From positions 434,001-498,000 of the forward strand of contig NZ_QGMY01000002.1 of NCBI RefSeq assembly GCF_003173355.1: DNA of 64,000 bases, in the 5' to 3' direction. How positions within the stretch are numbered: the stretch's first letter is position 1; the number at the start of each line of letters is the position of its first letter. The translations under genes were made by a program, and so were the position numbers. Positions 3,305 to 6,143 of this stretch are shown here, piece after piece. The stretch is from Methanospirillum lacunae (GTDB lineage: Archaea > Halobacteriota > Methanomicrobia > Methanomicrobiales > Methanospirillaceae). Under the pieces are notes generated by a model that had not been told where the DNA came from, did not search any database, and saw only the letters and a program-made list of their open reading frames with translations.

Positions 3305-4048
3305 ATGCTGAAAGGAACAATAAACGCCGATACTTTTCGTGATTCTATCGACGCCGTCGCTGCTCTGGTAACCGAGTGCAGAATGCATTTCTCCGAGCAG
3401 GAGGTGTGGATCAGATCTGTCGATACCGCAAATGTTGCTATGGTCATTCTCACCCTCCAGCGTGAAGCGTTCAATACATACGAAGCTACACCCGGGGAGC
3501 TTGGGCTCGATATCACAAAGATGAAGAATATCTTCACGATGATGGGAAAAGCAAGTGAAGTGAGTCTGGACTATCCAGATGGAGCTAATAAGATTGAAGT
3601 CAGGTTTGAAGGGTATCATTATGCCATCACCCTGCTTGATACAAGCACCATCAAAAAGGATCCTAACTCACCAGGCATTGAGCTCCCTGGCGTTGTGACT
3701 GTCTCAGGATCAGACCTCTATAATACTATCAAGTCCGCAGCAGTGGTTTCAGACAAAATGTGGCTTGGAATTAATCCTGATAAGAAGGTCTTCTATATTA
3801 TTGCCGAAGGAGACAGTGACCACATCGAGCGTGAGTTTTCTGCTGATGAGATGATATCCTGTAATTATTCACAGGCCCGCTCCCTCTTCTCAATTGATTA
3901 CCTCAAGGATATGGGAAAAGTCATGGCACACGCATCAGAGGTAACCATTCACCTGGGAACTGATCACCCGGTTAAATTCTCCTTTGATATTGCTGGCGGA
4001 AAAGGACATGTTGAGTACCTGCTCGCCCCACGTATCGAAGCTGACTGA
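3305..4048 (+). CDS. pcn: DNA polymerase sliding clamp (PCNA)
   Basis: Homotrimeric sliding clamp that encircles DNA and tethers DNA polymerases, FEN1, ligase and other partners. The 247-residue length and overall pattern are those of archaeal PCNA. The N-terminal fold includes MHFSEQEVWIRSVDTANVAMVILTL and the LGLDITKMKNIF segment typical of the first domain. The domain-connecting loop is around residues 115-125, and the C-terminus VEYLLAPRIE matches the usual LAPR[IV]E tail. It sits 3 bases before priL, a common archaeal pairing of clamp and primase large subunit, and is presumably co-transcribed with it. It would be loaded by the RFC complexes, two small subunits of which are encoded in this window. 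Confidence 0.96.
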   Translation: MLKGTINADTFRDSIDAVAALVTECRMHFSEQEVWIRSVDTANVAMVILTLQREAFNTYEATPGELGLDITKMKNIFTMMGKASEVSLDYPDGANKIEVRFEGYHYAITLLDTSTIKKDPNSPGIELPGVVTVSGSDLYNTIKSAAVVSDKMWLGINPDKKVFYIIAEGDSDHIEREFSADEMISCNYSQARSLFSIDYLKDMGKVMAHASEVTIHLGTDHPVKFSFDIAGGKGHVEYLLAPRIEAD

Positions 4049-4051
4049 TGC

Positions 4052-5233
4052 ATGGTAGCACTTGACCTTCGAGACCTTGCAAAATACCCTTTTTTAAAAG
4101 AAGCCCAGTCCTTTATCGCTGCAAATACAGCCTCCCTCGATCAGTATTTTGAATCTTCTGCAGGTCGTCTTGCGGTAAAAGAAGCATACGACACTGTATC
4201 AGCTTCAATCAGGTTTAACCCCCGCCAGCCTCCTGAAGATCTGTCTGAAGTTCCCTCCGAGGCGGAAGCCGTCAGAATAATTATTTCCGCATACCCGGCA
4301 AGCCGGTTACTGGTCTCCTGTTCTGGTGATAAGATGCTCATTGATCGACTTTGTCGATACCAGTCATGGAGAGTATATCGGTATCTCCAAGATGAGGATC
4401 CAAAGAAGAAAGAAGTGATAGCAGCCAGTCTGGGACTATCAGGGAGTTCTACCAAAATTCCGGTGATTCAGTACATAGAGATAGCTTCCAGGCTCACTGA
4501 TGACAGATGGAGGCTTGTAAACCGGGTTGTGGAGAAAGGGATTGTCAGGATTCATAGTGATGAGATCGATGAGATCCTGAGGGAACGTCTCAGGGTTATC
4601 ATGAGTCAGAACCTCCCACTTAAAGTTCCTCCATCTCTTTGTATCTCTTTACAGCCGGTAATTGACCGAATCAAAACCACAATACAGGAGCGGATGCTTG
4701 AAGAGTTTGGATCTGTGGAAGAGTCTGCTTTCCCCCCCTGCATTCAGGCAATTATCGCAGCTCTCGTGCAGCGGACTCACCTTACCCATATGGGAAGATT
4801 TGCAGTGACTGCTTTTATGCATAACATTGGGATGGAGAACACCCGGATTGTCGAGTTGTACGGGCATGTACCTGACTTCGATCTCTCAAAGACCATGTAC
4901 CAGGTGGATCATATATCAGGTCAGGGAGGAAGTGGAACTGAATACACATCTCCCCAATGTTCCACGATGAAAACTCATGCACTCTGTGTTCATCCTGATG
5001 CTCTCTGTAAAAATATTACGCATCCACTCACGTATTACAAACAGAAAAAAAGAATGGTTACTGTTCCCAAAAAGAAAGCCGGGATTGTTGGGTCAGGGGG
5101 TAACATTCCTGATAAGGAATCCGCCCCCGCTGATAACAGCGATAAACAGGAAAAGCGCAATAAGGTACGCGGTACTGCCATGGAGGAAGGCAGGAAGAAC
5201 AATGAGGACCACAAGGAAGATAATCAGGCTTAA
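4052..5233 (+). CDS. priL: DNA primase large subunit PriL
   Basis: Regulatory, iron-sulfur subunit of the archaeal/eukaryotic-type primase that starts Okazaki fragments with the catalytic subunit PriS. Four cysteines at about residues 230, 303, 312 and 319 (in PPCIQAII, PQCSTMKTHALC and DALCKNITHP) are placed as the known [4Fe-4S] ligands. The QVDHISG segment just before the second Cys is typical. The conserved core ends near residue 334. The remaining 59 residues are a Lys/Asp/Glu/Asn-rich polar tail that does not look like family sequence. Its codons run antisense to a hydrophobic two-helix reading frame on the other strand (see 5093-5269). Start: ATG three bases after pcn. Confidence 0.92.
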   Translation: MVALDLRDLAKYPFLKEAQSFIAANTASLDQYFESSAGRLAVKEAYDTVSASIRFNPRQPPEDLSEVPSEAEAVRIIISAYPASRLLVSCSGDKMLIDRLCRYQSWRVYRYLQDEDPKKKEVIAASLGLSGSSTKIPVIQYIEIASRLTDDRWRLVNRVVEKGIVRIHSDEIDEILRERLRVIMSQNLPLKVPPSLCISLQPVIDRIKTTIQERMLEEFGSVEESAFPPCIQAIIAALVQRTHLTHMGRFAVTAFMHNIGMENTRIVELYGHVPDFDLSKTMYQVDHISGQGGSGTEYTSPQCSTMKTHALCVHPDALCKNITHPLTYYKQKKRMVTVPKKKAGIVGSGGNIPDKESAPADNSDKQEKRNKVRGTAMEEGRKNNEDHKEDNQA

Positions 5234-5269
5234 GACACCAACCACAGCATCGAGCATCCACCGTTTCAT
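5093..5269 (-). CDS. small two-helix membrane protein, antisense to the priL 3' end
   Basis: A 58-residue reading frame from the ATG at 5269; in-frame alternatives are the ATG at 5299 and a TTG at 5317. After a short basic start (MKRWMLD) it has two strongly hydrophobic segments: about residues 8-28 (VVGVLSLIIFLVVLIVLPAF) and 35-50 (YLIALFLFIAVISGGG). These are joined by a short polar turn and followed by a basic end (IRNVTP). It converges on priL and overlaps its last 47 codons. The composition is typical of a real membrane protein. However, the reverse complement of a Lys/Glu/Asp-rich tail can mimic hydrophobic sequence, so I keep the confidence moderate. No strong ribosome binding site is visible. 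Confidence 0.5.
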   Translation of the reverse strand: MKRWMLDAVVGVLSLIIFLVVLIVLPAFLHGSTAYLIALFLFIAVISGGGFLIRNVTP

Positions 5270-5381
5270 AATCTGACCATACGTTCTGTTTATACGCATA
5301 AGTAAATGTCTGAGCAAAAACTCGCAGGAAATATTCTTGGGCGGGATATTTTATGTTAGGGGATGAGTTTCCGGGTGATCT

Positions 5382-5948
5382 ATGAATTATTCTCATGATT
5401 GTGAAGAGAAAGAAAGAGAGATCTCAAGTGGTAATCTCGTCCTCATCCGTGAACTGGAGTCAGTGATAGAGTCTCTGGGAGAAATTTCACATTCAGAGAT
5501 TGCACCTGCTGGAGGGATTGTGATGGCGTATGCCCGGCAGGGCGCCAGGACCATTGATGACGTGTTTGCCGTAATAGACGGTTCTATCATCTCTTCGGAA
5601 GATCTCCCTGTTTGCAGGATGGTCCTTACTGCAACCCGGTTTGATCCAGCAATCCGGTGCGTGGCAATTGTAAGATATAATCCAAAGATCATAGAAATCG
5701 CTGATGAGATGCTGATGGAGGTTTCTTCATTCAATCGCGCCCAGGAACCTCCAGGAGATTCTTCTCATGATTGGGGGGTTGCTTTCTGCTGTGAGAAGAG
5801 CGATGGCGTTCCTGATCTGATCTACGATACCGGATGTGTAGGAAAAGAGCCCTTGATCCGTCTTCTGGGTGAGAATCCGACCCGTGTTTTAGCAAGTATT
5901 AATAGGATCTTAACGCGCATTATAACTACAAATTTTACAGAGGAATAA
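5382..5948 (+). CDS. stand-alone ThiN-domain protein (thiamine-phosphate synthase family)
   Basis: ThiN domains catalyse condensation of HMP-PP with HET-P to thiamine phosphate. They usually occur as the C-terminal part of ThiD-ThiN fusions or, in a ligand-sensing form, behind a DNA-binding domain (ThiR). Here the domain is essentially alone: about 25 residues of charged N-terminus, then the recognisable order of IAPAGGIVMAYARQGARTIDDVFAV, a variable centre, FDPAIRCVAIVRYNPKIIEIADEM, and a DLIYDTGCVGKEPLIRLLG region. No helix-turn-helix or ThiD kinase domain is present. It lies directly upstream of rps17e (3 bases). A ribosome-binding-like GGTGAT precedes the ATG. Whether this copy is catalytic or regulatory cannot be decided by eye. 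Confidence 0.7.
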   Translation: MNYSHDCEEKEREISSGNLVLIRELESVIESLGEISHSEIAPAGGIVMAYARQGARTIDDVFAVIDGSIISSEDLPVCRMVLTATRFDPAIRCVAIVRYNPKIIEIADEMLMEVSSFNRAQEPPGDSSHDWGVAFCCEKSDGVPDLIYDTGCVGKEPLIRLLGENPTRVLASINRILTRIITTNFTEE

Positions 5949-5951
5949 TCA

Positions 5952-6143
5952 ATGGGTGTAAAACCAAGTTATATAAAGGGCATCGGTGCAGAACTTCTGG
6001 AAAACCACCGCGAAAAGTTTTCTGGCGATTTTGATGAGAATAAAAAAGCCGTAAGTGCAGCAACTGATATTCCCACCAAGAGCGTGCGCAACCGTGTTGC
6101 AGGCTATATCACAAGAAAGGTAAATACCGGAAGAACAGCATAA
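5952..6143 (+). CDS. rps17e: 30S ribosomal protein S17e
   Basis: Small-subunit ribosomal protein found in archaea and eukaryotes. The 63 residues match the archaeal S17e pattern: MGVKPSYIKGIGAELLENH at the start, DFDENKKAV in the middle, and SVRNRVAGYITRKV near the end. It is short like other archaeal S17e and lacks the eukaryotic extension. It is embedded between the ThiN gene (3 bases) and dapA (9 bases), which suggests co-transcription of a ribosomal protein with lysine biosynthesis. Confidence 0.96.
   Translation: MGVKPSYIKGIGAELLENHREKFSGDFDENKKAVSAATDIPTKSVRNRVAGYITRKVNTGRTA

Follow-up and report, generated by a model that had tools for sequence, protein, structure and literature searches.

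Convergent genes overlapping by at least 60 bp are known, many of these overlaps resulting from the 3' extension of one gene (PMC2478687), and convergent overlaps are considered to arise usually from the mutation of a stop codon (PMC2174442). Small coding frames lying antisense to a known gene have been described in E. coli O157:H7, namely asa and laoB (PMC6294744, PMC5810103). In haloarchaea, the gene for the DNA primase large subunit of Haloferax volcanii, HVO_0173, is reported as essential (PMC7776575), and a literature search for DUF7472, the Pfam family to which the neighbour of haloarchaeal priL genes belongs, found no paper mentioning it in the library searched. At the locus presented here, within a window of 64,000 nucleotides of Methanospirillum lacunae (NZ_QGMY01000002.1, positions 434,001 to 498,000), priL runs into a small gene on the opposite strand. 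As in the category iii convergent overlaps (PMC2478687), priL extends further at the 3' end than its orthologues do and its partner has a normal length, and the priL stop positions together with the small-protein lengths over the loci compared are those of a convergent overlap formed by 3' extension. Unlike that category, the overlap has arisen about six times at a single locus and grows long in one register only, which is explained by the partner gene encoding a membrane protein. With asa and laoB, the locus shares a small coding frame antisense to a known gene, but in the present case the antisense gene is the old, widely conserved partner and the priL extension the young part; a de novo antisense overprinted gene was considered and rejected, since the small protein predates the overlap and the priL tail is not conserved. 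The loss of a stop codon into a convergent gene is thus a mechanism of a known kind, while the protein is an overlooked and widely conserved homologue of DUF7472. It is highly probable that an old DUF7472-homologous hairpin gene stands tail-to-tail with PCNA-priL and that priL acquired a near-neutral tail by stop loss, a reading whose homology, synteny, register, substitution pattern and repeated origin are directly supported.

The plus-strand gene at 4052..5233 encodes a product of 393 amino acids matching PF04104 (E 1e-30) and the NCBIfam PriL model NF002591 (E 1e-150), the latter covering residues 2-342 with 501.6 bits for a cut-off of 479. Its cysteines at PPC, PQC, ALC and ALC motifs are the conserved cysteines of the Fe-S domain and, together with the family match, they place the product in the PriL family as the large (regulatory) subunit of DNA primase. 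Since the NCBIfam model matches residues 2-342, the tail from residue 348 lies outside the conserved core, in agreement with the first-pass annotation, made from the letters of the window, which described a polar tail beyond the conserved cysteines and the core fold. The convergent overlap spans 141 nt (5093..5233) and comprises 46 non-conserved priL sense codons plus the stop, opposite codons 13-58 plus the stop of the small gene, both frames being in exact antisense codon-on-codon register; that the minus frame covers exactly the last 47 codons of priL, as had been claimed, is borne out once the TAA is counted with the 46 sense codons. This priL stop codon (5231..5233, plus strand) is the complement of the TTA encoding Leu13 in the small gene and is common to four related genomes.

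On the minus strand, 5093..5269 translates to MKRWMLDAVVGVLSLIIFLVVLIVLPAFLHGSTAYLIALFLFIAVISGGGFLIRNVTP, followed by a TGA stop. AlphaFold2 predicts a helical hairpin (mean pLDDT 91) with helices at residues 3-27 and 31-54 of the 58-residue protein, so that translation and model agree with the two hydrophobic helices described at first, the coordinates and the description being correct. Near or fully invariant residues of the family, i.e. D7, L25-P26, A38, F42 and G50, suggest from the alignment a packed helical hairpin without evident catalytic site. Searched alone, the 58-residue protein of the window matched no Pfam family at E<=1 and had no match in NCBIfam, while a PDB sequence search with the profile of the small protein returned just a chance-level match to TOM5. 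Foldseek and VIA-align gave no significant match for the model, the hits being generic helical hairpins (MscS, dolichyl-phosphate mannose synthase). The resemblance to the transmembrane hairpin of an archaeal dolichyl-phosphate mannose synthase is weak (Foldseek E ~5, VIA-align Z ~5) and no better than expected of generic hairpins.

Regarding conservation, the first-pass annotation had proposed a TBLASTN search against Methanomicrobiales, which retrieves relatives of the small protein in 188 of 199 genomes at E<=1, some of them weak and a few of the weakest probably being chance matches; identity goes from 90% inside the genus down to ~31% across the order. A profile built from 42 members matches at least 55 Methanomicrobiales genomes in a phylum-wide sample, and no Methanomicrobiales genome appears among the misses listed. 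All the 85 loci examined have an ATG start, with a start picker slightly favouring ATG, and encode 58-62 amino acids. Since start, length and gene position are shared by relatives all over Methanomicrobiales, the small gene goes far beyond chance, and the minus-strand frame is confirmed as a real gene rather than a chance antisense frame. Upstream of the ATG, a candidate archaeal TATA element, TTTACTTATG, is located at 5297..5306 on the minus strand, i.e. 28-37 nt before the start codon; this TATA-like element is common to related genomes, reading TATACTTATG in one of them (L034), and a similar signal is found ~29 nt upstream of the ATG across the copies of the small gene. Over 83 loci, A predominates at positions -36 to -33, and A+T makes up 81-89% of positions -29 to -26, a succession corresponding to the layout of the archaeal BRE and TATA box for leaderless or very short-leader mRNAs. 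The distance to the ATG would accordingly imply a leaderless or very short-leader mRNA; we infer that the gene is expressed, with leaderless transcription, and that its product is located in the membrane.

Beyond the order, a haloarchaeal profile match adjoining priL proved to be a member of PF24284 (DUF7472), a family present in 51 of 59 haloarchaeal genomes, that of Haloferax volcanii among them, and priL lies near and convergent to the DUF7472 gene in 28 of 30 haloarchaeal loci. A third set of homologues, from other families of the phylum and taken to be Methanosarcinales and relatives by gene content, has the gene away from priL. Comparisons between the three sets by hhalign gave 94%, 98% and 97% (reversed-sequence controls <=8%), the Methanomicrobiales and haloarchaeal DUF7472 sets aligning at 94% with E 1.4e-7 (reversed ~2%), which shows homology of the small protein with DUF7472 at the profile level. 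When the 42 members were compared with PF24284, 12 matched at E<=1 (best 0.0067), none of this amounting to membership by the 27-bit cut-off curated for the family in Pfam, and the window protein alone had no match at E<=1; as it fails on its own to reach the Pfam model, it is to be considered a homologue of DUF7472 rather than a formal member. The likeness to DUF7472 concerns the size, the two-helix layout, the profile-profile homology (94%) and the position, convergent and adjacent to priL, the latter being found in this comparison and lying outside Pfam's definition of the family. The difference concerns the overlap, since the haloarchaeal pairs that could be cleanly measured, four loci being left out, overlap priL by <=4 nt. 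The membrane-protein family thus spans methanogens and haloarchaea, extending DUF7472, and is missed by both Pfam and NCBIfam in this genome.

Elsewhere in Methanomicrobiales, priL usually stops short of the small gene or reaches into it by 4, 8 or 20-23 nt. Every overlap of 60-171 nt is in the codon-on-codon register (15/15 entries with at least 60 nt, near-duplicates included), those in the other registers ending within 23 nt. Read in register, the complement of the small gene stays open over a median of 141 nt, vs. 55 and 20 nt when read in the remaining two frames; it is open longest in register because stops then arise only from TTA, CTA or TCA codons of the small gene. Besides, mean GRAVY is +1.65 for the small protein, -1.41 for its in-register antisense and -2.1 for the tail in the window; the polar character of the tail is therefore explained, since a membrane-protein gene read in register on its complement gives polar residues and rarely stops. 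Parsimony on the PriL tree gives 6 changes for the long overlap (bootstrap 5-6), so that priL read-through arose repeatedly, about six times. A long in-register overlap is present in 7/7 rows of the genus, while in its sister L042 the two genes are 30 nt apart. Inside the genus, the overlap is of 141 nt in one group and of 60-72 nt in the other, so the tail length is not conserved.

Which frame is under selection was assessed in the overlap of four related genomes (the window, L037, L033 and L034), i.e. six non-independent pairs. Differences fall at small-gene codon positions 1:2:3 in the proportion 50:23:112, that is mostly at priL first positions, and the same codons in lineages without long overlap give a similar pattern (784:367:2199). 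The dN/dS is 0.08-0.23 in the small frame, 0.74-1.47 in the priL tail and 0.03-0.04 in the priL core, this last value being taken from a codon alignment, and simulations with constraint on the small frame alone reproduce the observed dN/dS while constraint on priL only, or equal on both, fails to. Selection in the overlap is thus supported, from the substitutions, as acting on the minus frame, and the comparison of codon-position constraint on each strand, proposed at the outset, comes out in favour of the small gene, with substitutions at its third positions. It is very improbable that the minus frame is a chance ORF opposite a Lys/Glu/Asp-rich tail that would itself be the selected product. 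This interpretation draws on a genuine effect of the code, the complement of polar codons in register being hydrophobic (GRAVY +1.65 vs. -1.41), but the small protein is conserved where the priL overlap is absent, which refutes it; besides, substitutions concentrate at priL first codon positions and priL-only simulations give a small-frame dN/dS of at least 0.7 (5th percentile) vs. the 0.08-0.23 observed. What the first-pass annotation offered as a rival, i.e. a Lys/Glu/Asp tail giving hydrophobic antisense codons by chance, stands as regards the coding effect but has the direction reversed, the hydrophobic gene making the polar tail.

That both frames are functional, with a useful disordered priL tail or a deliberate overlap coupling the 3' ends of both transcripts, we consider unlikely. 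Four diverged genomes share an identical 141-nt overlap, codons 14-58 are devoid of TTA, CTA and TCA in 4/4 genomes, where the expected chance of an open frame computed from the codon usage of the window is 3-5% per genome, and most pairs have a priL-frame dN/dS somewhat under 1. The openness of the frame is however inherited by common descent. The Leu/Ser codon changes among the four overlapping genomes are few and none creates a priL stop, which makes for a weak test; relatives of the same genus with overlaps of 60-72 nt have not kept the tail length, and a simulation of equal constraint (0.2 in both frames) predicts as many changes at position 1 as at position 3, which is not observed. The priL tail would thus be under little or no selection, a weak constraint (omega ~0.5) being compatible with the simulations; such constraint stays conceivable because the 46-residue tail is present in all four overlapping relatives and the priL-frame dN/dS falls in the lower part of the small-only simulated null. 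As for an assembly or sequencing error in the region of the priL stop, long 3' extensions of convergent genes do often turn out to be annotation or sequencing errors (PMC2478687), but the same overlap exists in three independent relatives and all the Methanospirillum-group loci examined overlap in register, complete single-contig genomes included; this recurrence refutes the error, whose probability is practically nil.

Given the selection pattern in the overlap, with the small frame constrained and the tail near neutral, the priL tail is best regarded as a by-product of stop-codon loss. The first-pass annotation had put forward a real gene with the tail as by-product, and this is supported by conservation across the order and at greater distance, by the long tail occurring in register only and by selection on the minus frame. 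Ancestrally, priL would have ended before the small gene or within ~20 nt of it. Its stop would have been lost in the ancestor of the genus, leading priL to enter the small gene codon-on-codon, where hydrophobic codons with a middle T would be read as polar priL codons with a middle A. The frame would then have run to Leu13 (TTA), yielding a 46-residue tail rich in Lys, Glu, Asp and Asn, with the small protein kept by selection and the tail tolerated as nearly neutral baggage. The locus offers a clear case of the codon register and hydrophobic composition of a neighbour setting the growth of a gene after stop loss. In practice, the small gene may be lost at this locus from the output of gene callers forbidding overlaps, and no function should be read into the PriL tail by users of PriL sequences.

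The usual order at the locus is rlmE and PCNA-priL, convergent to the small gene, followed by a ThiN-domain gene, S17e, dapA and dapB. The gene at 3305..4048 on the plus strand, which we take to be that of the PCNA sliding clamp, is a conserved neighbour found upstream of priL in most relatives, and priL is convergent to the small gene within 300 nt in 69 Methanomicrobiales loci; in a few loci, priL is absent from the fetched stretch. In several loci, mostly of one lineage or family (L064, L082, L090, L105, L108, L116), priL and the small gene are ~1.8 kb apart. The long-kept pairing of the small gene and priL may be the ordinary retention of a stable gene block; that its persistence in haloarchaea and Methanomicrobiales is due to selection, either because the hairpin links or coordinates the replication machinery with the membrane or because primase expression is regulated by the convergent 3' ends, seems unlikely. 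The small protein is most likely a helical-hairpin housekeeping membrane subunit, and our best guess from its size, conservation and topology is that it acts constitutively in a membrane complex, as a small subunit or a stabiliser, rather than as a partner of primase. Gene context was tried as a functional clue and set aside, the UPF0047, ThiN-domain and secD neighbours differing by group with nothing consistent.

In the Methanosarcinales-like set, the homologue often lies directly upstream of UPF0047 (YjbQ) on the same strand (L160:4917-5613, L156:4556-5195, L162:4986-5671); the UPF0047 and ThiN-domain neighbours may both relate to thiamine-phosphate synthesis. In one lineage (L169:4974-8247), the homologue follows secF-secD on the same strand at a distance of ~500 nt, and secD was not found beside it within the fetched stretch of the relatives L170 and L171. 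In the window, the ThiN-domain protein gene (5382..5948, plus strand; PF10120, E 6e-33) is divergent from the small gene and followed by another conserved neighbour, a 63-aa gene at 5952-6143 presumed to be S17e. This standalone ThiN-domain gene beside S17e and dapA-dapB is conserved in Methanomicrobiales.
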